Assembly: GCF_000380185.1 (NCBI RefSeq)
Contig: NZ_KB904747.1
Location: forward strand, 124,001 to 188,000
From: Thiofilum flexile DSM 14609
Lineage (GTDB): Bacteria > Pseudomonadota > Gammaproteobacteria > Thiotrichales > Thiotrichaceae
Direction of reading: 5' to 3'
Length of the DNA stretch: 64,000 nucleotides
Positions 49,909 to 64,000 of this stretch are shown piece by piece (position 1 is the stretch's first letter; every line of letters starts with the position of its first letter). Below the pieces are notes generated by a model that did not search any database, was not told the DNA's origin, and worked only from the letters and a program-made list of their open reading frames with translations. Position numbers and translations under genes: made by a program.

Positions 49909-51096
49909 TTACTCTCTTGGAGTTTGACGCATATAGTGCCCGCCACCACATGCCACAACAAAGCCCTGTAACTCAAGCATAAGCAGAATGGAGGAAACCA
50001 CATCGGCGGTCAAGCCAGTATTAAGAATTATCTGGTCAATTGGTAGGGGTTCTGAGCCTAAAGCCGACAGAATGCGTTTATGTTCCTCATCCATGTCCCA
50101 ATTAACCTCAAAGATAGCCTGCTTATTGGGCTTAGGAGCGTGAGGGCGGGAGCTGGAGGTCTGAGCTTGAGGCGTGTTGCCATCCTGCAAATAGGGCGCT
50201 AATTGAGGGGCAATTTCCTCTAAAATATCTTGGGCGGTTTCCACCAATTTAGCCCCTTGGCGAATTAATTGATGGCAACCCCGTGCCATAGGATTATGAA
50301 TGGAGCCGGGAATAGCAAAGACTTCACGTCCTTGTTCCATCGCATGCTTGGCGGTGACTAGTGAGCCACTTTTAAGTGCGGCTTCCACTACTAAAGTCCC
50401 TACACTCAGGCCACTAATAATCCGATTACGGCGGGGGAAATGTTGTGGTAGAGGTTTGGTTCCAATCGGATACTCAGAAATAATGAGACCTGCTTGGCTA
50501 ATTTGTTCGGCGAGCTTCCGGTTTTGACTGGGGTAGACCATATCTAAACCCGTTGCTACTACCGCAATAGTAGTACCACCACTGTCTAAAGCTGCTTGAT
50601 GGCTAATCGCATCAATACCTTCAGCGAGGCCGCTAGTGATAGTTAAACCATGCTCTGCTAAATAAGCCGCAAACGCGCGGGCATTATCACGTCCCTCACG
50701 GCTAGGGTTACGGCTACCAATTAAGGCTAATTGTGGGTCATTTAATAAGGCTGTTGTTCCTACCGCAAACAGTAGCGGAGGAGAGGCATCAATATCGGCG
50801 AGTAGGGCGGGGTAATGTTCATGTTCTGGGGTCAGAATATGGCGTTGAGCTGAGGTGGTAGACCACTTTAAATCCAGCTCAGCACCGGCTAAGGTTTCGG
50901 CTGAAGGTGATTGAAGCGCTTCAATCACCACAGGCTTAAGGCCAGTTGTTTGTAATAACTGACCACTAACATTAAAGACCGCATCGGCTGAACCTAATTG
51001 CTGTAGCAGACGGCGCAGACTCATTGGGCCTATTCCGGGCGTTCGCCACAGTTTCAGGCGCTGGAATAACTCCTGTTCACTAATCGATGCGGTCAT
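49909..51096 (-). CDS. dprA: DNA-processing protein DprA
   Basis: Loads RecA onto incoming single-stranded DNA during natural transformation. It has 395 residues. An N-terminal SAM-like/helix-hairpin region (RTPGIGPMSLRRLLQQL) precedes the Rossmann core with GSRNPSREGRDNARAFA, ITSGLAEGIDAISHQAAL and YPIGTKPLPQHFPRRNRIISGLS, and a C-terminal winged-helix domain (ILSALGSEPLPIDQIILNTGL). The ATG at 51096 with TGAG seven bases upstream is preferred to a TTG at 51108. It lies directly after the LysM lipoprotein gene. Confidence 0.95.
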   Translation of the reverse strand: MTASISEQELFQRLKLWRTPGIGPMSLRRLLQQLGSADAVFNVSGQLLQTTGLKPVVIEALQSPSAETLAGAELDLKWSTTSAQRHILTPEHEHYPALLADIDASPPLLFAVGTTALLNDPQLALIGSRNPSREGRDNARAFAAYLAEHGLTITSGLAEGIDAISHQAALDSGGTTIAVVATGLDMVYPSQNRKLAEQISQAGLIISEYPIGTKPLPQHFPRRNRIISGLSVGTLVVEAALKSGSLVTAKHAMEQGREVFAIPGSIHNPMARGCHQLIRQGAKLVETAQDILEEIAPQLAPYLQDGNTPQAQTSSSRPHAPKPNKQAIFEVNWDMDEEHKRILSALGSEPLPIDQIILNTGLTADVVSSILLMLELQGFVVACGGGHYMRQTPRE

Positions 51097-51114
51097 GTCA
51101 GTACTCAATAGGGG

Positions 51115-52347
51115 TTAAGGATTGCCAATTTTATACCCATTTTTAACCTCACGGGAGGCGTCCATAATGAGTCCATAACTCACTTGGCGGTCAGTTTTAA
51201 AGATAACAAGATTAGCAACTTTTTCAGGTGGTAAGCGCACCGCTTGTTTTTGTTCAGTACCATATTGACCTTTTCTAGATTGATAAGGATCTAGTACCAC
51301 AGAGCCTGGGGCATAAACACCTAATACATAACCCTCATGTATCCCTTGGCCCGCGCCTTTATTAATGACGGCTACCATACGATTGCCACCTAAATAGTTA
51401 GCATCTAGCATAGAAATAATATCGGCACGTACTTTGTGCGTAGGCTCTGTCATGGCGGTATGGAGTTGAATGGTGTGATCTTCTAGTGGAAATACTCGAT
51501 CCCCATTTTGTATTTCACGTTGGCTCTCTATAACTGTAGCAGTAGTCAGTTCACCTGGGGTATTAATTTCAATAATACCGGCGAGGTTGGCCTCAACGCC
51601 TAAAATGCGCTTACTACTAGGGTCATTAAGCTTTTTACTAGGGTGATAGACTCCCCACTGTTGGCCTACTTGAGCGCCACGTAAATTGCGCACATAAATT
51701 TTTTGCTGAGGAGCAATTAAGAGCGTGTTGTCTTGTGAGGCTACGATATAGGGCGCTTTATTAATTTGGTCAGCACTGAGCAATTTAGGCCAGAAGGTAA
51801 AGGCTGCAAGGGTATTAATAGGCTCGCCAATTAAGGACTGCTGGGTTCGCTCAATACGAATGCGCGGTTTGAGCTTAAGGGTACTCGCATCGGCTGCCAT
51901 GGTGTTGCCACTATTTAGCGTTCGACCATTATAGCTTAACATACCGTTTTCTAAGCGAATGACATCGCCCGGATAGATTAAATGTGGGTTTTTAATCTCG
52001 CGATTATTACCCCAAATTTCAGGCCAACGCCAAGGATGTTTGAGGAATTTTCCGGCAATATCCCATAAGGTATCGCCTTTTTTAACGGTATAACTATCGG
52101 GGGCATTGGGATTTAACTCCAAAGAGGAGGAGCGTTGTGGCGTATCCCAGTCATCATTAGCAATAGAACTGACGAACGTATCGCTATTTGAGCCATGATT
52201 AGAGGGATTACTTTGGGGTTGGCCATAATATCGGTCATAATTAGGGTTAACTACAGGTGTTTCGTTATAGTTTTTAGCCGTGCTACAACCTACTACTACG
52301 AAACCCATGACACACGTTAACCATAAGGTATTCAGATCACGTAACAT
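51115..52347 (-). CDS. LysM-domain lipoprotein
   Basis: A 410-residue envelope protein. The N-terminus (TCVMGFVVVGCSTAK) is a lipoprotein signal with lipidated Cys near residue 21. A LysM domain at about 85-133 (YTVKKGDTLWDIAGKFLKHPWRWPEIW) binds peptidoglycan. A beta-rich region of about 250 residues follows, with repeats of Val-Gly-x-G-type turns (GAGQGIHEGYVLGVY). This type of LysM protein commonly precedes dprA in gammaproteobacteria. It is divergent from def across 102 bases. Confidence 0.9.
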   Translation of the reverse strand: MLRDLNTLWLTCVMGFVVVGCSTAKNYNETPVVNPNYDRYYGQPQSNPSNHGSNSDTFVSSIANDDWDTPQRSSSLELNPNAPDSYTVKKGDTLWDIAGKFLKHPWRWPEIWGNNREIKNPHLIYPGDVIRLENGMLSYNGRTLNSGNTMAADASTLKLKPRIRIERTQQSLIGEPINTLAAFTFWPKLLSADQINKAPYIVASQDNTLLIAPQQKIYVRNLRGAQVGQQWGVYHPSKKLNDPSSKRILGVEANLAGIIEINTPGELTTATVIESQREIQNGDRVFPLEDHTIQLHTAMTEPTHKVRADIISMLDANYLGGNRMVAVINKGAGQGIHEGYVLGVYAPGSVVLDPYQSRKGQYGTEQKQAVRLPPEKVANLVIFKTDRQVSYGLIMDASREVKNGYKIGNP

Positions 52348-52449
52348 GATTTAGATCCTTGTCGTTATTATTGGAGTGGATTTAATCTCGCATGATACTT
52401 GACCCAATAAGTGACAACATCTCTTCCAGACTTTCGGTAATTGAACACT

Positions 52450-52995
52450 ATGACACTATTAACCATTTTACATCATCCCGATCCACGTTTGCGTAAAAAG
52501 GCAGCGGCAGTCAATGCGATCACGCCCGCTTTACAACAGACTTTAGATGATATGTTAGAGACTATGTATGCCGCTCCCGGCATTGGTTTGGCAGCCACAC
52601 AAGTCAATGTGCATCAGCGCATGATTGTGATGGATATCTCCGAAAATAAAGATCAGCCCCTGTTTATCATTAACCCAGAAATCCTCCACAAAGAAGGCAC
52701 GATTGAATACGAAGAGGGCTGCTTATCGGTGCCTGAGTATTACGATAAAGTGACACGTGCTGAAAAAATCAGAGTGCGCTTTTTAAATCGTGAGGGACAA
52801 ACGGTAGAGCTAGAGGCAGAGGGCTTATTGGCTATTTGTATCCAACATGAAATGGATCATTTAGAGGGTAAGTTATTCGTTGATTACTTATCAACCTTAA
52901 AGCAGCAGCGGGTACGTAAGAAACTAGAAAAACTCGCCAAGAATCCTGCTCCGGCAAAAACGCCTGACCCTGAGGCGCAGGCGGTTAATCAATGA
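52450..52995 (+). CDS. def: peptide deformylase
   Basis: Removes the formyl group from nascent protein N-termini. It has 181 residues. The three motifs are GIGLAATQV (44-52), EGCLSVP with metal ligand Cys91, and HEMDHLEG with His133 and His137 and the catalytic Glu134. The ATG at 52450 gives [15 protein letters not shown], matching the family; the TTG at 52441 is an alternative. Its stop overlaps the fmt ATG by 4 bases. First gene of a seven-gene run to trkA. Confidence 0.97.
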
Positions 52996-53927
52996 GCTTG
53001 GCGTTACGAGTGATTTTTGCCGGTACGCCTGATTTTGCCGTGCCAGCGTTACAAACCTTGGTGCAATCGCGCCATACCGTGGTGGCGGTCTATACTCAAC
53101 CAGATCGACCCGCCGGGCGTGGACGTAAACTGATGCCCAGTCCAGTCAAGCAATTTGCTGTAGCTCATAATATTAGCGTTGAACAACCAGAGTCCTTAAA
53201 GAGCCTAGAGGTGCAACATATTCTAGAGCAGTATAAAGCAGATGTGATGGTCGTGGCGGCTTATGGCTTGATTTTACCGCAGCGGGTATTGGATATTCCG
53301 CGTTATGGTTGCTTGAATATTCATGGCTCTTTATTGCCCCATTGGCGCGGTGCTGCACCGATTCAGCGGGCGATTGAAGCAGGTGATAAGGAAACAGGCA
53401 TTACCATTATGCAAATGGCGGCAGGTTTAGACACGGGTGATATGTTGTTAAAAACCCATTGCCCTATTACTAGTACCTCGACGGGACGAAGTATTCATGA
53501 TCAGCTTGCCCAAGACGGTGCTGCGGCCTTATTGAAGGTGCTTGATCAGGTTTGTACCGATACTTTACGCCCTGAAAAGCAAGATAATGCATTGGCGACC
53601 TACGCACATAAATTGACTAAGGCTGAAGCGCTGATTGACTGGTCAAAGCCTGCACTAGAGATTGATCGGAAAATTCGTGCCTTTGATGCTTACCCAACAG
53701 CCTATACCCTATACAAGGGGGAGCCGCTGCGTTTTTTTAATTCGCAAGTACTCGATAGTCATACCCAAGCGCCCGCAGGCTCGGTGATTGCTGAAAGTAA
53801 GGCAGGCATTGATATTGCCACGGGTGAGGGGGTAGTGAGAATTTTGCGTCTACAGCTAGCAGGAAGCAAACCCTTAGCGGTGGCTGAGTTTACTAAGGCA
53901 CGCTCTCTATTAGGAGAACGCTTTTGA
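52992..53927 (+). CDS. fmt: methionyl-tRNA formyltransferase
   Basis: Formylates initiator Met-tRNA using 10-formyl-THF. It has 311 residues. [17 protein letters not shown] opens the Rossmann-like domain, and the active-site region is [18 protein letters not shown] with [10 protein letters not shown]. The C-terminal OB-like domain follows [13 protein letters not shown]. It overlaps def by 4 bases (ATGA) and rsmB by 4 bases, so translation of the three is coupled. Confidence 0.98.
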
Positions 53928-55219
53928 ATACGCGAGGCCTAGCGGCTCAATTACTACAAAATGTATTAGCCAATCATCAGTCTTTGACTGAGGTTTTGCG
54001 CTCTCCTAAGTTACAAACATTGGCAGCACGGGATCAAGGTCTAGTTCGTGATTTATGTTTTGGCTGTATGCGTTGGCATGAGCGCTTAAGTGCGATTTTA
54101 GCGGTACTGATGACTAAGCCACTTAAAGCAGCGGATAATGATATTGAGTGCGTCTTAAGAATTGGCTTATACCAAATTCTTTATCAACAAATCCCAGAAC
54201 ATGCAGCGGTGAGTGAAGCGGTAAATGCTACACGAGATCTTAAAAAGCAATGGGCGGGTAAATTAGTTAACGGGGTATTGCGTACTTTTCTAAGGGAACG
54301 TGAGCGTATTTTAGCTCAAGTCGATACGAAGCCTAATGTCCGCTATGCCTTTCCGAATTGGCTATTAACTCGTCTTCAAAATGCGTATGCACAAGATTGG
54401 GAAAGGTTAGTTCAAGCGATTAATGAGCATCCACCCTTCACCATACGCGTTAATCAACTACAGTTTACTACTGAGCACTATCAGCAATTATTAACAGAGG
54501 CAGGGATTCCAGCGGTTAGGGTTGAAGGAGTTCCTAGCGCTTTAGTGATTACCCAACCTGTACCGGTTACCAATTTGCCCTATTTTGCAGAAGGCGCGGT
54601 TTCGGTACAAGATGCAGCGGCACAGTTAGCCGCACTGTTACTCGCCCCTCAAGCGGGTGAAACGATATTAGATGCCTGTGCCGCACCGGGAGGGAAGACA
54701 GGGCATTTATTAGAATCCGCACCTAATTTAACCGTGCTAGCACTAGATTCGAGTGCGAAACGTTTAGAGCAGGTCAGTGCTAATCTAGCGCGGCTGAAGC
54801 TCACAGCACAAATTAAAGCGGCTGATGCGGGCGATGTGGAGAGTTGGTGGGAGGGACAGTTATTTGATCGAATTTTATTAGATGCACCGTGCTCTGCTAC
54901 AGGTGTGATTCGCCGCCACCCCGATATTAAATATTTGCGGAAAAATAGTGATATTGCGTCCTTACAATTAGAACAAGCACGTTTATTAAAGGCTTTATGG
55001 CAGACTTTGAAAAAGGGAGGGGTATTACTTTATGCAACTTGCTCTTTATTACCACAAGAAAATCAGGAGCAGATTCAAACATTTTTAGCGGCAACGCCAG
55101 AGGCTCAATTAGAGCCACTCCCCCTAAACAATTTAGGAGAGGGGAAAATAGGTCGGCAATTATTACCGAGCTATCAGGGCATGGATGGTTTTTATTATGC
55201 TTTATTGCGCAAAGCCTAA
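53924..55219 (+). CDS. rsmB: 16S rRNA m5C967 methyltransferase
   Basis: Methylates C967 of 16S rRNA. It has 431 residues. An N-terminal NusB-like RNA-binding domain (about 1-130) precedes the SAM domain with DACAAPGGKTGHLLE, LDAPCSATGVIRRHPDIKYLR and YATCSLLPQENQ; the two catalytic cysteines are in APCSATG and TCSLLP. The start is TTG at 53924, seven bases after AGGAG and overlapping the fmt stop. Confidence 0.97.
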   Translation: MNTRGLAAQLLQNVLANHQSLTEVLRSPKLQTLAARDQGLVRDLCFGCMRWHERLSAILAVLMTKPLKAADNDIECVLRIGLYQILYQQIPEHAAVSEAVNATRDLKKQWAGKLVNGVLRTFLRERERILAQVDTKPNVRYAFPNWLLTRLQNAYAQDWERLVQAINEHPPFTIRVNQLQFTTEHYQQLLTEAGIPAVRVEGVPSALVITQPVPVTNLPYFAEGAVSVQDAAAQLAALLLAPQAGETILDACAAPGGKTGHLLESAPNLTVLALDSSAKRLEQVSANLARLKLTAQIKAADAGDVESWWEGQLFDRILLDAPCSATGVIRRHPDIKYLRKNSDIASLQLEQARLLKALWQTLKKGGVLLYATCSLLPQENQEQIQTFLAATPEAQLEPLPLNNLGEGKIGRQLLPSYQGMDGFYYALLRKA

Positions 55220-55231
55220 GGCACATGAGTG

Positions 55232-55810
55232 ATGAGTACTCGGTTATTATATTTTGGCAAGTTATTTTTATGGTTACCGTTATGGCTAATGATTTTAATA
55301 ACACCTGCTAAAGCAGAAGATGAAATTTTATTAAAAGACTTTGTAATTACGACAGCAGGAAGTCCACGTCAGTTAGTGGCGAATGTTAGTTTTGATTATC
55401 AACTCAATAGCTATTTACGTGAGGGCTTGTTAAATGGGGTTACTTTAAGACAGGCGATTACTTTTGATCTGATGTGGGAAAATAATTGGTTTTGGAATAC
55501 GACGCGCCCCTTAGATCGAGTAGAGACAGAATTACAGTATCATGCTCTGAGCCAGCATTATCAATTAATTCGTTTAGATACTCAGGAGCATTGGAATTTC
55601 ACCTCTCTAGCCTCGGCATTAGATTATATGGGAACTTTAGAAAATTATAAGCTACCCTTATTACCTGCTAATGCGTTAGGATCAAATGCCTCTATTGTAA
55701 TGCAGGTGACACTAACACCTAAATCACCGGCTTTACCTCTAAAGCTACGCTTATTATTTACGGAAGACTATGCAATTGAAAGTCAGGGGGTCAAGTGGCC
55801 TCTTCCCTAA
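55232..55810 (+). CDS. DUF4390 protein of the rsmB-ntrY interval
   Basis: A 192-residue exported protein with a signal peptide (LLYFGKLFLWLPLWLMILITPAKA). The rest is mostly beta and contains QLVANVSFDYQLNSYLREGLLNGVTL and FTSLASALDYMGTLENYKLPLL, typical of DUF4390. This family is regularly found between rsmB and ntrY, so a periplasmic accessory to the NtrY sensor is plausible but unproven. The ATG at 55232 follows an adjacent GTG. Its end overlaps ntrY by 16 bases. Confidence 0.85.
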   Translation: MSTRLLYFGKLFLWLPLWLMILITPAKAEDEILLKDFVITTAGSPRQLVANVSFDYQLNSYLREGLLNGVTLRQAITFDLMWENNWFWNTTRPLDRVETELQYHALSQHYQLIRLDTQEHWNFTSLASALDYMGTLENYKLPLLPANALGSNASIVMQVTLTPKSPALPLKLRLLFTEDYAIESQGVKWPLP

Positions 55811-57984
55811 CTAAATGGCTTAAGCAGTGGCTACCTGTTATTATTATTCTAATTTCCCTGCTGGTTTCGCTATATTTAGTTAATCTTACTACGGTTAATC
55901 CGACAAGTAGTGAGCAATATGGCGATTTTCTTATTTATCTTAATGGCTTTATTCTCGTTATTTTAGTCATAGCCGTATTTTCTAATTTATTTCGTGCTAT
56001 CTATCAATGGTATACTCGCCAAGCAGGTTCACGTTTTACTATTCGCTTAATGTCAGGCTTTGTCTTACTGACTTTAATACCGCTAATTGTCGTGTCATTT
56101 TTCTCCATGAATTTTATTGGGCAACGTATTGATCGTTGGTTTGATGTCAGAATTGAGCGAGCCTTAGAGGATAGTGTGGATTTAAGCCGTATCTCTTTAG
56201 AAACTCGTAATCAGCAGCACTTATACGAATTGAAGCGTTTGGCAAATGCTATTAAAGATAAGTCACGTGCGACTATTTTAGAGTTAGTTGATGATTGGCG
56301 TTATGAGACCCAAGCACAGGAAGTCGTATTATTTGGTCAAGATGGGCAGTTTGAAGTAACCAGTGTCGGTGATAATACGACCTTAATTCCTCAATTTCCC
56401 GCTCAAGATTTGTATTATGAATTAGAGCAAATAAATAGCTATTATCATTTAGAGCCGGTGGGTGAAGATGATTTATTTTCACGGGTGGCTGTTAAGGTTA
56501 GTTATAGTTTTGCGGATGGCATGGCACGTCAGGGTATATTAACCGCTTTATTTCCTATTTCCGAATATGAAAAGTCCTTAGCCCGTAGCGTAGACATTGC
56601 CCAAAAAGAATATAAAGAGCTACGTTTTCAACGCAATTTAATTAAAGATTCGTTTCGCCTGACTTTATTTGTCATTATGGTTTTAACCGTTTTATTTTCT
56701 CTGTGGGCAGCATTTGTCTTTTCACGGCGTTTAACAAGTCCGGTGCGGGTATTAGTTGAGGGAACTTTAGCAGTCGCGGCGGGAGATTTAGATAAAAAAT
56801 TACCTGTTTTAGAGCGAGATGATTTTAGTTCTTTAGCGCGTTCTTTTAATACTATGACTAGACGTTTATCTGCCGCACAACAAGAGCGTGAACAAGCGCA
56901 GCGGCAATTACAGCAAGAGCATGATTATTTATTTGTAGTTTTAGAGCATCTTACTTCAGGCGTTATTACCTTAGATGAGCATTTGGTTATTCAACGTATT
57001 AATAGCGCAGCGAGTAGTATGTTAGAGCTGCCATTACAACCCTTAGTAGGTAATACTTTACCAGCAGCGGGTGAGCTTTGTGGCGAGTTTATGCCCTTTG
57101 TAGAAGCGGTTTCACCTTATTTACAGGCGGATAATGCTGAGTGGCAGACAGAAATTCATTTAGAGTTTAAAGGTAAACGCCGTACTTTAGCTTGTCGAGG
57201 CGCTGGTTTACCGAGTGATATTGATCAATTAGGCTATGTTTTAGTATTTGATGATATTAGTGAGCTGATTCAGGCTGAGCATGATGCTGCTTGGAGTGAG
57301 GTGGCACGCCGCTTAGCACACGAGATTAAAAACCCTCTGACCCCGATTCAATTATCAGCAGAACGTTTAGCACGTAAACTAAAAGGCGAGCTGAGCGAGG
57401 AGTCAGCGCAGTTTTTAGGGCGTATGACCAATACTATTGTGCAACAAGTGGATGCCTTAAAAGGCATGGTCAATGCGTTTAGTGAATATGCAAAAGCCCC
57501 CGCCTTGGTGCTACAAACTACGGATCTCAATCAATTAGTGCTTAATGTGGTTGATTTGTATCGTACGAATGAGCAGCAAGTTACACTCCATACAACATTA
57601 AATCTACAAGCGCCGGTACGTTTAGACCTAAATCGAATGCGGCAGTTATTGGTGAATTTAATTAAAAATGCGCTCGAAGCTATCGGAGAGCAGGGTCAAG
57701 AAGGTACGATCACCCTGAGTACCCAAGGGGTTGTGATTAAAGGGCAAGCTTTTGCTGAGTTAAGGGTACTCGATAGTGGGCCTGGTATTAATCCTGAATT
57801 ACTACCTAAACTATTCGAGCCTTATGTGACTACTAAACATAAAGGAACGGGATTAGGGCTAGCAATTGTCAAGAAAATCGTAGAAGAACATGGCGGACAA
57901 ATTAGCGCCCACAATCACGAGGTAAAAGGCGCTATGATTACCTTATTAATACCGATTCAAGTACCAGCAGTGCGAGGAGCATAA
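55795..57984 (+). CDS. ntrY: NtrY-type sensor histidine kinase
   Basis: A 729-residue membrane kinase. Three helices lie in the first 110 residues, a periplasmic sensor reaches to about residue 290, a helix follows (LTLFVIMVLTVLFSLWAAFVF), then HAMP, a coiled coil, a PAS domain (VLEHLTSGVITLDEHLVIQR), HisKA with His509 (RRLAHEIKNPLTPIQLSAERL), and HATPase with NLIKNALEAIGEQG and GTGLGLAIVKKIVEEHGG. The start is GTG at 55795 behind AGGGGG. NtrY responds to nitrogen or redox state in other proteobacteria. It ends one base into ntrX (TAATG). Confidence 0.93.
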   Translation: MASSLTKWLKQWLPVIIILISLLVSLYLVNLTTVNPTSSEQYGDFLIYLNGFILVILVIAVFSNLFRAIYQWYTRQAGSRFTIRLMSGFVLLTLIPLIVVSFFSMNFIGQRIDRWFDVRIERALEDSVDLSRISLETRNQQHLYELKRLANAIKDKSRATILELVDDWRYETQAQEVVLFGQDGQFEVTSVGDNTTLIPQFPAQDLYYELEQINSYYHLEPVGEDDLFSRVAVKVSYSFADGMARQGILTALFPISEYEKSLARSVDIAQKEYKELRFQRNLIKDSFRLTLFVIMVLTVLFSLWAAFVFSRRLTSPVRVLVEGTLAVAAGDLDKKLPVLERDDFSSLARSFNTMTRRLSAAQQEREQAQRQLQQEHDYLFVVLEHLTSGVITLDEHLVIQRINSAASSMLELPLQPLVGNTLPAAGELCGEFMPFVEAVSPYLQADNAEWQTEIHLEFKGKRRTLACRGAGLPSDIDQLGYVLVFDDISELIQAEHDAAWSEVARRLAHEIKNPLTPIQLSAERLARKLKGELSEESAQFLGRMTNTIVQQVDALKGMVNAFSEYAKAPALVLQTTDLNQLVLNVVDLYRTNEQQVTLHTTLNLQAPVRLDLNRMRQLLVNLIKNALEAIGEQGQEGTITLSTQGVVIKGQAFAELRVLDSGPGINPELLPKLFEPYVTTKHKGTGLGLAIVKKIVEEHGGQISAHNHEVKGAMITLLIPIQVPAVRGA

Positions 57985-59363
57985 TGACCACACCATTTAT
58001 TTTAGTCGTCGATGATGAGCCGGATATTCGTCAGTTAGTGAGCGAAATTCTAGAAGATGAGGGTTATCGTGTCGAGACCGCCGATAGTGCTGAATCGGCT
58101 CGCGAGATTCATCGTAAACGTCGCCCAGACTTAGTGCTGCTGGATATTTGGATGCCGGGCATGGATGGTATCTCCTTATTAAAAGAGTGGCGTGATAGCA
58201 ATGCTTTATTAGGCCCCGTCATTATGATGTCAGGGCATGGCACCATTGAGACGGCAGTAGAGGCAACAAAGTTAGGCGCTTATGATTTTATTGAAAAGCC
58301 GCTGTCACTGGCTAAGATGCTGCTTACTATTGGCAATGCTCTACGTTCCAGCCAATTAGAACAAGAAAATAAAGGCTTAAAACGCCAAGTACTCGCCACT
58401 AATGATTGGGTCGGTTCCAGTCAAGTGATGCAAACCTTACGCGAGCAAGCAAAACGTATTGCGCAACACTATAATCGCGTCTTGCTGTATGGTGAGCCGG
58501 GGGTGGGTAAACAATCGTTTGCGCGTTATATCCATGAGCAGAGCGCACGGCGTGATCGTCCATTTATTAAAGCTAATCTCGCCTCTATTGGGCAACAAGA
58601 TAGTTGTAAATTATTATTTGGCAGTCAAGAAGCTGGTAAAAGTCAGTATGGTCTATTAGACGAGGCGAATGGTGGGACTTTATTTTTAGCCGAAATTACC
58701 GAGCTATCGTTAACGTGCCAACAGCGTTTACTAGGAGCCTTACAAGAAAATCGCTTTCTACGCGTCGGTAGTACTAATGATTGGGTGGAGCTAAATCTTA
58801 ATTTAATTGTGTCATCCTCCTATGATCTAGCCGATGATGTACAAGCGGGGATGCTGAATAACGAGTTATATTATTTACTCAATACCCTCCCGTTAGTGAT
58901 TCCGCCCTTGCGAGAACATGCCGAAGATGTGCCTGAACTACTCAACTATTATGTGAATTTACTAACCGCCCAAGACGGCCTGCCCTATCGGCATTTTACC
59001 TTGTCCGCTCAAAATTTCCTGCGTAACCATCGCTGGCCCGGCAATATTCGTGAATTGCGTAATTTAGTGCAGCGTTTATTGATTTTAGGCACAGAGGTAG
59101 AAATTACTCAGGATGAAGTGGAGGAGGCTTTAGGTGCTCCAGTTCCGGTTTATTCGCAAGAACTCAGTGGCACACCAGAAACCTTATTTGACTTACCGCT
59201 TAGACAAGCGCGTGAGCAATTTGAACATGATTATCTAGTCTATCAGCTCAAACAAGCCGATGGTAATGTGAGCAAATTAGCCGAGCAAGTGCGTATGGAG
59301 CGTACCCATCTCTATCGTAAAATGCGTGCCTTGGGTGTTGATCCCAAGAAATATAGCCGTTAA
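57984..59363 (+). CDS. ntrX: NtrX-like response regulator with degenerate AAA+ domain
   Basis: A 459-residue regulator partnered with NtrY. The receiver is intact (Asp10-Asp11, Asp54 in LLDIWMPGMDG, Lys105) and so is the Fis-type HTH (SKLAEQVRMERTHLYRKMRAL). The central domain keeps Walker A (GEPGVGKQ, 170-177). After LFG (211-213) the GAFTGA sigma-54 contact loop is replaced by a shorter SQEAGKSQYG. Walker B reads FLAEI (234-238) where FLDEI is expected, and the usual FRxDLYYRL is NNELYYLLN. Sigma-54 activation and ATP hydrolysis are therefore unlikely, and it probably acts as a phosphorylation-controlled DNA-binding protein. GAFTGA loss is known in other NtrX proteins. Confidence 0.92.
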   Translation: MTTPFILVVDDEPDIRQLVSEILEDEGYRVETADSAESAREIHRKRRPDLVLLDIWMPGMDGISLLKEWRDSNALLGPVIMMSGHGTIETAVEATKLGAYDFIEKPLSLAKMLLTIGNALRSSQLEQENKGLKRQVLATNDWVGSSQVMQTLREQAKRIAQHYNRVLLYGEPGVGKQSFARYIHEQSARRDRPFIKANLASIGQQDSCKLLFGSQEAGKSQYGLLDEANGGTLFLAEITELSLTCQQRLLGALQENRFLRVGSTNDWVELNLNLIVSSSYDLADDVQAGMLNNELYYLLNTLPLVIPPLREHAEDVPELLNYYVNLLTAQDGLPYRHFTLSAQNFLRNHRWPGNIRELRNLVQRLLILGTEVEITQDEVEEALGAPVPVYSQELSGTPETLFDLPLRQAREQFEHDYLVYQLKQADGNVSKLAEQVRMERTHLYRKMRALGVDPKKYSR

Positions 59364-59380: not shown

Positions 59381-60751
59381 ATGAAAATTCTAATTTTAGG
59401 TGCAGGGCAGGTCGGTCGGTCAGTTGCTGCCGTACTCACCCATGAAGACAATGATATTACTATCGTTGATACGAATGCAGTGGTGATGCGTGAGTTACGT
59501 GAAAAGCTAGATGTGCGTACTGAGGTGGGGCAAGCCTCTTATCCGCGCGTGCTAGAGCGAGCGGGGATTCAAGAGGCCGATATGATTATTGCCGTCACGA
59601 ATAGTGATGAGATTAATATGATTGCCTGTCAGGTGGCGCAAACGCTGTATCGTACACCCACCAAAATTGCCCGTATTCGCTCCTCACATTATCTAGAGCA
59701 ACCGCGCTTATTTGGTAGTAACGCCGTTCCTGTAGATGTACTGATTAGCCCGGAGCAATTAGTGACCGAGCATATCTTTCGGCTCATTTCTCATCCGGGG
59801 GCGTTACAGGTATTAAGCTTTGCTGAGGATAAAGTACAGTTAGTGGCAGTGCGAGCCTTATCAGGTGGCTCTTTAATCGGACATCGCTTATCAGAAATTC
59901 ATGAGCATATGCCGGGGATTAAGGGGCGGGTTGCAGCCTTATTTCGTAAAAGTAAGGTCATTCATGATTTTGAAAATGCCATATTAGAAGAAAACGATGA
60001 GGTTTTCTTTATTGCCAGCCCTAAACATATTCGCTCGATTATTAGTGAGTTACGTAAATTAGATAAACCCTATAAGCGTATTGTACTCGCCGGGGGCGGT
60101 AATATTGGTAATCGTTTAGCTCGCCTACTCGAAGAGGCGAAATATCAAGTTAAGATTATTGAAAAAGACTCCGAACGGGCGGCTAAATTAGCCGAACGCC
60201 TCGATAAAACCATTGTATTAGAAGGGGATGTGGCGGATGAAGATCTGCTGATTGAGGAGGGTATTGATAGTACCGATGTCTTTGTCGCGATTACCAATGA
60301 TGATGAGGCCAATATTTTATCCTCCATGTTAGCCAAGCGCTTAGGGGCACGGCGGGTAATGTGTTTGATTAATCGGCTAAGCTATGCGGACTTGGTTGAG
60401 AGTAATATCGATGTGGCGGTGTCGCCACAACAGATTACTATCGGAGCCTTATTAGCGCATATTCGGCGGGGAGATATTGTCGCCGTTCACTCATTAAGAC
60501 GCGGTGTGTCAGAGGCGATTGAGGTGGTAGCCCATGGTGATAGGCAAACCTCACGTGTGGTTGGTAGGCGACTTGATGACCTAAAATTACCACCCGGAAC
60601 AGCGGTGGGTGTATTGATTCGGGGCGATGAGTTGTTATTTGATAATGCAACTATTGTGGAAGATGGTGATCATGTGATCATGTTTGTTGCAGATAAACGG
60701 TATATTGCTACGGTAGAAAAGCTGTTTCAGGTAGGGATTCATTTCTTCTAA
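59381..60751 (+). CDS. trkA: Trk potassium uptake regulator TrkA
   Basis: The peripheral NAD(H)-binding subunit gating TrkH/TrkG potassium channels. It has 456 residues (E. coli 458). There are two RCK_N Rossmann units (ILILGAGQVGRSVAAVL and IVLAGGGNIGNRLARLL, each followed by an acidic IVDTN/IIEKD) and two RCK_C domains. trkH is not in the window. The ribosome site is weak. It lies 17 bases after ntrX in the same direction, an arrangement common in gammaproteobacteria. Confidence 0.96.
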   Translation: MKILILGAGQVGRSVAAVLTHEDNDITIVDTNAVVMRELREKLDVRTEVGQASYPRVLERAGIQEADMIIAVTNSDEINMIACQVAQTLYRTPTKIARIRSSHYLEQPRLFGSNAVPVDVLISPEQLVTEHIFRLISHPGALQVLSFAEDKVQLVAVRALSGGSLIGHRLSEIHEHMPGIKGRVAALFRKSKVIHDFENAILEENDEVFFIASPKHIRSIISELRKLDKPYKRIVLAGGGNIGNRLARLLEEAKYQVKIIEKDSERAAKLAERLDKTIVLEGDVADEDLLIEEGIDSTDVFVAITNDDEANILSSMLAKRLGARRVMCLINRLSYADLVESNIDVAVSPQQITIGALLAHIRRGDIVAVHSLRRGVSEAIEVVAHGDRQTSRVVGRRLDDLKLPPGTAVGVLIRGDELLFDNATIVEDGDHVIMFVADKRYIATVEKLFQVGIHFF

Positions 60752-62595: not shown

Positions 62596-64000
62596 ATGAG
62601 TCTTGCTATTACCTACAGTCGAACCAATGACGGCCTAAATGCACCTTTAGTCAGCGTTGAAGTCCATTTGGCGAATGGTTTACCCGGATTTTCGATCGTA
62701 GGTTTACCCGAAACAGCGGTGAAAGAAAGTCGTGATCGAGTACGAGCGGCGATTACTAATTCGGGCTATGAGTTTCCTTTACGACGTATTACCGTGAATT
62801 TAGCACCCGCCGATATTCCCAAAGATGGAGGGCGCTTTGATTTACCCATTGCTTTAGGGATTTTAGCGGCGAGTCATCAATTACCGAGTGAAGGGTTAGA
62901 GCAGTACGAATTTTTAGGTGAACTATCTCTAGGGGGACAATTGCGTGGAGTGCGAGGCGTGCTACCCACCTCATTCGCATCGCGTGAATCAGGACGGCAG
63001 TTAATCGTTCCCACTCAAAATGCAGATGAGGCAGCTTTAATTCGCACCTTAGCAGTATATCCAGCCAGCGATTTAAAGGCGGTAGTCGACCATTTGCAAA
63101 ATACTCACACCATTGCCCGCTATCAACTAGAAATAGCCTTTAAAGAAACAACCTATCCCTTTGATATGGCGGATGTGAAGGGGCAGTTTGTCGCACGTCG
63201 AGCGTTAGAGGTTGCCGCAGCCGGTGGGCATAATCTCATGATGATAGGCCCCCCCGGAACGGGTAAAACCATGTTAGCGAATCGCTTAGTAACGATTCTG
63301 CCAGCTTTAACAGAAACCGAAGCACTAGAATCAGCTACCGTTGCTTCGATTAGCCAGCAAGGCTTTAGTGCCGAACGTTGGGGCTTACGTCCGGTACGCG
63401 AACCTCATCATACTTCGTCAGGAATTGCTCTAGTGGGTGGTGGCTCGAATGTGCAGCCCGGAGAGATTTCGTTAGCGCATCATGGGGTATTATTTTTAGA
63501 CGAATTGACCGAGTTTGATCGTAAAGTATTGGATGTTCTGCGTGAACCACTAGAGACGGGGCAAATAACTTTATCACGTGCAGCCAGACAAGCGACCTAT
63601 CCCGCTAATTTTCAACTGATTACCGCCATGAACCCTTGCCCGCGTGGGCGAGCGTGTGATTTACGCGAGAATTGCGAGTGTTCACATGAACAACAAAAAC
63701 GCCATCGTAGCCGTATCTCAGCCCCCTTTTTGGATCGGATTGATATTCAAATTGAAGTCCCCCGTGTGAAACAAGAGGATTTGCAAACCGTACAAACGGG
63801 CGAATCTAGTACAGTGATTCGGCAGCGAGTAGAGGCTGCAAGACAGCGTCAATATGCGCGTCAAGGAGTATTAAATCATCAATTAGCAGGTAAAGCTTTG
63901 GATACGTATTGTGCTTTAGGCGATAAGGATAAGCAGCTTTTGAGTGGGGCGATGGAGCGCTTTAAATTATCTGCTCGTGCTTATCATCGGATTTTAAAGG
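62596..64000 (+). CDS. comM: ComM/YifB Mg-chelatase-like AAA+ ATPase (partial, 3' end outside)
   Basis: The reading frame is open from ATG 62596 to the window end (468 codons), so only the last few dozen residues are missing. The N-terminal ChlI-type domain reads SVEVHLANGLPGFSIVGLPE and APADIPKDGGRFDLPIALG. The AAA+ core has Walker A GPPGTGKTMLAN, Walker B VLFLDELTEF and sensor FQLITAMNPCPRG, with a four-cysteine cluster (NPCPRGRACDLRENCEC) typical of YifB. ComM is a hexameric helicase that promotes branch migration during natural transformation. AGAG lies about ten bases before the ATG. Confidence 0.95.
   Translation, partial: MSLAITYSRTNDGLNAPLVSVEVHLANGLPGFSIVGLPETAVKESRDRVRAAITNSGYEFPLRRITVNLAPADIPKDGGRFDLPIALGILAASHQLPSEGLEQYEFLGELSLGGQLRGVRGVLPTSFASRESGRQLIVPTQNADEAALIRTLAVYPASDLKAVVDHLQNTHTIARYQLEIAFKETTYPFDMADVKGQFVARRALEVAAAGGHNLMMIGPPGTGKTMLANRLVTILPALTETEALESATVASISQQGFSAERWGLRPVREPHHTSSGIALVGGGSNVQPGEISLAHHGVLFLDELTEFDRKVLDVLREPLETGQITLSRAARQATYPANFQLITAMNPCPRGRACDLRENCECSHEQQKRHRSRISAPFLDRIDIQIEVPRVKQEDLQTVQTGESSTVIRQRVEAARQRQYARQGVLNHQLAGKALDTYCALGDKDKQLLSGAMERFKLSARAYHRILK

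Follow-up and report, generated by a model that had tools for sequence, protein, structure and literature searches.

Canonical sigma-54 activators such as NtrC1 and PspF work through an AAA+ domain whose L1 loop contacts sigma-54 and whose Walker B and arginine fingers drive ATP hydrolysis (PMC7175178, PMC4132715). Several relatives depart from this scheme. The NtrC proteins of R. capsulatus and Caulobacter are of NtrC type without GAFTGA and act at sigma-70 promoters; that of R. capsulatus needs ATP binding, not hydrolysis, and that of Caulobacter needs the Walker A Lys and the Walker B Asp, the latter residue being described as vital for hydrolysis and dispensable for binding (PMC10274813). 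Brucella NtrX (PDB 5m7n/5m7o/5m7p) combines a receiver (REC), an AAA+ domain and a helix-turn-helix (HTH), again without GAFTGA, and alphaproteobacterial ntrYX occurs in an ntrBC-linked context (PMC13001219, section 6). In Bordetella the order is rsmB-plrP-plrS-plrR-trkA, PlrR has a REC with phosphoacceptor Asp and a Fis-type HTH, and betaproteobacterial NtrX is stated to be without AAA+ (PMC13001219). Regulators of this kind that have lost GAFTGA or act at sigma-70 promoters are already known, as is PlrR without AAA+. Here we analyse a PlrR-type regulator of Thiofilum flexile DSM 14609, encoded on a stretch of 64,000 nucleotides (contig NZ_KB904747.1, positions 124,001 to 188,000; hereafter the window), in which the L1 loop, the Walker B Asp and both arginine fingers are gone while the ATP-binding P-loop is kept. 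Comparison with its relatives suggests that the AAA+ motor has been dismantled stepwise and repeatedly across a whole bacterial branch, and it is this graded recurrence, read from sequence, that we find the interesting part.

The plrR/ntrX-like gene (57984..59363; this and all coordinates below are on the + strand unless marked otherwise) encodes 459 aa in an intact frame of 459 codons with no internal stops, its ATG overlapping the stop codon of the upstream kinase gene (TAATG). Pfam recognizes a receiver, a Sigma54_activat/AAA+ domain with its lid and a Fis-type HTH (PF00072, PF00158, PF25601, PF02954). The receiver (residues 6-120, 57999..58343) with its phosphoacceptor Asp54 (codon 58143-58145) and the HTH (residues 406-450, 59199..59333; Pfam, alignment and model) are intact, as an earlier note made from the sequence alone had held. 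That note had also claimed the loss of GAFTGA from a segment about five residues too short, an Ala in place of the Walker B Asp and the absence of the arginines of FRxDLYYRL, all of which our analysis bears out. The L1 segment (residues 213-223, 58620..58652) reads LLFGSQEAGKSQYGLLDEANGG, contains no GAFTGA, and leaves 11 residues between FG and the next conserved Gly, where all 18 GAFTGA-bearing proteins compared have 16, a difference of five. In Walker B, LFLAEI (58680..58697), the Asp has become Ala236 (codon GCC, 58689-58691) and Glu237 is kept, whereas the second region of homology, LNNELYYLL (58854..58880, followed by a further Asn), has Asn292 and Leu298 at the equivalents of PspF R162 and R168. 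The earlier note missed that the P-loop (Walker A GEPGVGKQ, residues 170-177, 58491..58514) is intact; the switch Asn and Arg356 of sensor II (WPGNIREL, residues 351-358, 59034..59057) are likewise retained. Four paralogues in the same genome (L001-L004) serve as an internal control, with G[AS]FTGA, LFLDE and FRxDL[YF][YH]RL all present. An absence of sigma-54 from the host is ruled out, rpoN being present.

These changes are not peculiar to one gene. A first search for relatives matched 52 of 57 genomes at E <= 1e-30, and a near full-length close relative is found in 35 of the 36 host-family genomes (host included), the remaining one, G018, having half a gene. The host-family set comprises 37 distinct proteins, from the family genomes and from two metagenome-assembled genomes (MAGs), Cocleimonas L039 and Thiotrichaceae L041, with the G018 half gene left out; the protein of a Leucothrix MAG (L040) is identical to one of the 37. 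Removed before any counting were duplicates (L006, L136-L138), truncated rows (L239, L245, L263, L272, L278) and 8 identical proteins, and loci L166, L281, L282, L283 and L286 had no match. The alignment with relatives that the earlier note had proposed as a check confirms the changes: none of the 37 has the Walker B Asp, none the first arginine and only 5 the second, while all 37 have the receiver Asp and the P-loop Lys (Lys176 in the window), the Gly/Gly/Gly/Lys of the P-loop being invariant. Other positions are intermediate, with the Walker B Glu in 14/37 (Asp or Asn in the other 23), the sensor II Arg in 29/37 and the switch Asn in 2/37. Among 69 controls (51 alphaproteobacteria-type NtrX and the 18 GAFTGA-bearing proteins) the Walker B Asp is present in 69 and the first arginine in 68, and because the host family has neither, the loss is not attributable to chance or error. 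The loss of catalytic residues is neither a one-off nor an artefact; sequencing error or a pseudogene is ruled out by the intact frame, by changes common to the family and by a ratio of nonsynonymous to synonymous substitution rates (dN/dS) well below 1.

The controls also separate this loss from that of GAFTGA. All 51 alphaproteobacteria-type NtrX, which are all the loci in L054-L118 without GAFTGA, keep the P-loop Lys, the Walker B Asp and Glu and both arginines, as do 17 of the 18 GAFTGA-bearing proteins, the exception (L089) lacking both arginines. When 249 genomes of the phylum were searched separately, 65 gave a match; the 50 of these that were examined make up a second alphaproteobacteria-type set, in which the Asp and the Glu are each kept by 49 proteins and the P-loop Lys and the two arginines by all 50. 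Loss of GAFTGA as a sufficient cause of catalytic loss is thereby ruled out. The suggestion of the earlier note that more has been lost in the window regulator than the GAFTGA already known to be missing from NtrX thus stands when set against alphaproteobacterial NtrX, which keeps its catalytic residues, but not as a peculiarity of a single gene, the loss being family-wide and recurrent. Two proteins of the second set, L383 and L369, deviate at Walker B (Lys-Glu and Asp-Asp) with the remaining tallied catalytic residues unchanged, possibly the start of the same process elsewhere.

Across the class the picture is one of gradation. Among 159 further gammaproteobacterial PlrR proteins (mostly a single protein or a few from each family and so not a census, with L241 and L242, which have no AAA+ domain, counted as losses) the Walker B Asp is kept in 57, the first arginine in 123, the second in 40, and the P-loop position is Lys in 120 and Arg in 28. 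With the host family included, all five residues are kept in only 18 of 196 gammaproteobacterial proteins, and a GAFTGA-like string is found in none of them. These proteins form one group in a 221-protein tree from which the trait columns were excluded; this is a quick tree whose GAFTGA-bearing outgroup is not monophyletic, so the loss counts are approximate. With regain at equal cost or without regain, respectively, it implies 21 or 36 losses of the Walker B Asp, 17 or 17 of the first arginine, 8 or 42 of the second and 4 or 4 of a P-loop Lys or Arg, with no loss of the receiver Asp. Of the 196 proteins, 11 have no Lys or Arg at the P-loop position, and every one of these is also without the Walker B Asp; a further 128 have lost the Asp while retaining the Lys or Arg. 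This is consistent with an order in which catalysis went first and the P-loop later. Two very diverged regulators downstream of plrP (L284 and L285, genomes G259 and G357; 430-439 residues) have lost a recognizable P-loop.

The far end of the series is seen in the order to which genome G141 belongs, which its AAA+-less PlrR suggests may be Burkholderiales. The regulator has a match at E <= 1e-40 in 97 of 100 genomes of this order. Of 50 proteins examined there (the first 30 loci and 20 hand-picked to cover different families), 23 have practically nothing left of the AAA+ part, at a length of 208-271 residues, and 27, of 410-431 residues, carry an AAA+ relic of 207-215 residues. Of these 27, 2 still have the P-loop Lys, 1 has the Walker B Asp and none has the first arginine. 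On a tree of REC and HTH the AAA+-less form requires 4 changes, with a single clade not rejected by the approximately unbiased (AU) test (p 0.138). The AAA+-less L241 and L242 lie directly after plrP and plrS in the two genomes read in place, and the minimal output of the system would therefore need no ATPase. Since a relic persists in 27 of the 50, absence of AAA+ is not defining for PlrR; if the order of G141 is Burkholderiales, the statement that betaproteobacterial NtrX is without AAA+ (PMC13001219) is only partly true and needs qualifying.

The locus itself identifies the regulator. Upstream lie def, fmt, rsmB (16S rRNA methyltransferase, 53924..55219; PF01189, E 1e-66), the DUF4390 gene plrP (55229..55810, 193 aa; PF14334, E 5.2e-21) and a cognate PlrS/NtrY-like histidine kinase (55795..57984, 729 aa; HAMP, PAS, HisKA and HATPase by Pfam), and downstream lies the potassium uptake regulator trkA (59381..60751; PF02254, E 8.2e-50). 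The regulator thus sits directly 3' of rsmB, the DUF4390 gene and an NtrY-like kinase, an order shared with Bordetella, as are the REC with its phosphoacceptor Asp and the Fis-type HTH. From this gene order it follows that the window regulator is the counterpart of Bordetella PlrR and not of alphaproteobacterial NtrX, and plrR is its best name. Unlike the Bordetella cluster, trkH does not follow trkA in the window, and unlike betaproteobacterial NtrX as described in PMC13001219 the regulator has an AAA+ domain, predicted to be folded, with an intact P-loop. Alphaproteobacterial NtrX, for its part, keeps the Walker B Asp-Glu and both arginines and has published contexts linked to ntrBC, not rsmB-plrP (PMC13001219), whereas def-fmt-rsmB-plrP-plrS precede the regulator here. 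The NCBIfam NtrX equivalog model NF051870 is the top-scoring of 117 families on the protein, at 441.9 bits, short of its curated cut-off of at least 600. DUF4390 is found in 245, and a full-length relative of the regulator (E <= 1e-85) in 228, of 369 sampled genomes of the host's class. In genome G142 (L283), homologues of plrP and plrS adjoin a transporter-like gene, with no plrR beside plrS.

The AAA+ domain does not appear to be simply dead, given a P-loop kept in 37/37 host-family proteins and a predicted fold that is intact. The AlphaFold model of the regulator (mean predicted local distance difference test score, pLDDT, 86.7) renders L1 as a short hairpin (residues 213-222), and its AAA+ part superposes on NtrC1 (1ny6) with Z 29.8 and a root-mean-square deviation of 1.6 Å over 243 residues; the canonical activators would thus share the AAA+ fold with the window regulator, which is without their L1/GAFTGA, Walker B Asp and arginine fingers. 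Over its full length the regulator matches Brucella NtrX in the PDB, also its best PDB match by sequence (E 1.3e-93), of which entries 5m7n and 5m7p are titled as ATP and ADP complexes. With catalytic residues lost and the fold apparently kept, the domain would qualify as a pseudo-ATPase. It is also the fastest-evolving domain of the host family, with a mean pairwise identity of 0.51 against 0.81 for REC, 0.75 for the lid and 0.81 for the HTH (the corresponding AAA+ and REC values are 0.63 and 0.68 in alphaproteobacterial NtrX and 0.62 and 0.50 in GAFTGA-bearing proteins). Within one genus, AAA+ dN/dS is 0.066-0.135 and that of REC 0-0.041 in the same 10 of 15 pairs, the other 5 giving no value with dS saturated in the AAA+ part. 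The domain is relaxed, yet under constraint.

Losses of L1, the Walker B Asp and the arginine fingers, together with a kept P-loop, receiver and HTH, fit a phosphorylation-controlled sigma-70 regulator, for which R. capsulatus NtrC offers a parallel in the literature (PMC10274813). Drawing on the residue losses, their family-wide and recurrent pattern, the retained P-loop, the fold prediction and the gene context, we consider it probable that the window regulator is the PlrR of a PlrP-PlrS-PlrR system with sigma-70 output and a non-hydrolysing, nucleotide-binding AAA+ scaffold. Phosphorylation of Asp54 by PlrS would let the REC change the dimerization or oligomerization of the regulator, whose Fis-type HTH would then activate or repress sigma-70-type promoters in the ordinary way. 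Within this scheme the AAA+ domain would be a folded pseudo-ATPase, its L1 deletion precluding engagement of sigma-54 and the want of the Walker B Asp and both fingers making ring ATP hydrolysis impossible; that the regulator neither hydrolyses ATP nor contacts sigma-54, as the earlier note had concluded, is well supported at the level of sequence. The retained P-loop probably still binds nucleotide, and we infer a role as nucleotide-stabilized spacer or oligomerization scaffold between REC and HTH. We advance more tentatively the further idea that dismantling ran in order through L1, catalytic residues, P-loop and whole domain, and that the host family is held at a point where ATP binding, uncoupled from hydrolysis, is the allosteric signal of a sigma-70 regulator gated by phosphorylation and ATP together.

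Several points weigh against this explanation. The catalytic Walker B Glu is kept in the window, so that weak hydrolysis is possible; the sensor II Arg is gone in 8/37 and the switch Asn in 35/37 host-family proteins, and nucleotide binding itself may be fading; and the P-loop can be retained for structural reasons. Caulobacter NtrC, without GAFTGA, yet requires Walker A and B residues (PMC10274813), so that ATP independence does not follow from the loss of L1 by itself; the window regulator differs from it in having no Walker B Asp. NtrX-type palindromes (GCAN9TGC, CAAN2-5TTG) gave no convincing site in the stretches scanned near the cluster; the only matches there, two of CAAN2-5TTG lying within plrS at its 3' end against an expectation of 0.52, are not taken as evidence.

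The main rival sees in the AAA+ domain no more than a neutral relic, tolerated as a spacer en route to deletion, that neither binds nucleotide nor plays an allosteric role. The order of G141, with its relics and its 23 proteins that have lost the domain, and the low AAA+ identity in the host family speak for it, but the invariant P-loop of that family and an AAA+ dN/dS far below 1 make it unlikely there. That the domain binds another ligand, for instance cyclic di-GMP (c-di-GMP), as a second-messenger sensor at sigma-70 promoters is improbable: FleQ and VpsR, AAA+ regulators that respond to c-di-GMP, are among the fold matches (VpsR being known here from structure titles alone), and FleQ acts at sigma-70 promoters with no need of ATP hydrolysis (PMC10723142), but common descent would be expected to produce such matches, and nothing in the window regulator was identified as a ligand-binding feature or as a sign of a response to c-di-GMP. 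Residual hydrolysis through Glu237, with an unconventional metal ligand and finger, could draw on the P-loop and sensor II Arg that are also present, but seems very doubtful: the Walker B Asp and both fingers have disappeared together, in most relatives along with the switch Asn, and in 23/37 host-family proteins an Asp or Asn stands in place of the Glu. Mixed rings that poison or tune sigma-54 activation by a canonical enhancer-binding paralogue, for which four such paralogues and rpoN are at hand, can hardly be credited with L1 and the fingers lost and AAA+-less relatives occupying the same gene context.

The PlrR series may be regarded as natural intermediates between an ATP-driven activator of sigma-54 type and a simple REC-HTH regulator, one that makes testable which AAA+ parts a response regulator needs once sigma-54 is abandoned. 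In the literature searched, which included few subscription papers, we found nothing that describes NtrX/PlrR as having lost Walker B or the arginine fingers, and such a description may be in print. As one comparative study has interpreted NtrX in Acidithiobacillia as sigma-54 regulation (PMC12194929), it is worth adding that a PF00158 ('sigma-54 interaction domain') annotation in the PlrR family should not be taken as such.

An Rfam search gave no match anywhere in the window. Directly upstream of plrP the neighbourhood is one of ordinary housekeeping, with dprA and a LysM protein (49909-52347, -) facing def-fmt-rsmB (52441-55219, +). An open frame at 62596-63999 (+) runs off the window end and matches PF00158 weakly (30.8 bits, roughly 63202-63633); it is probably another AAA+ protein.

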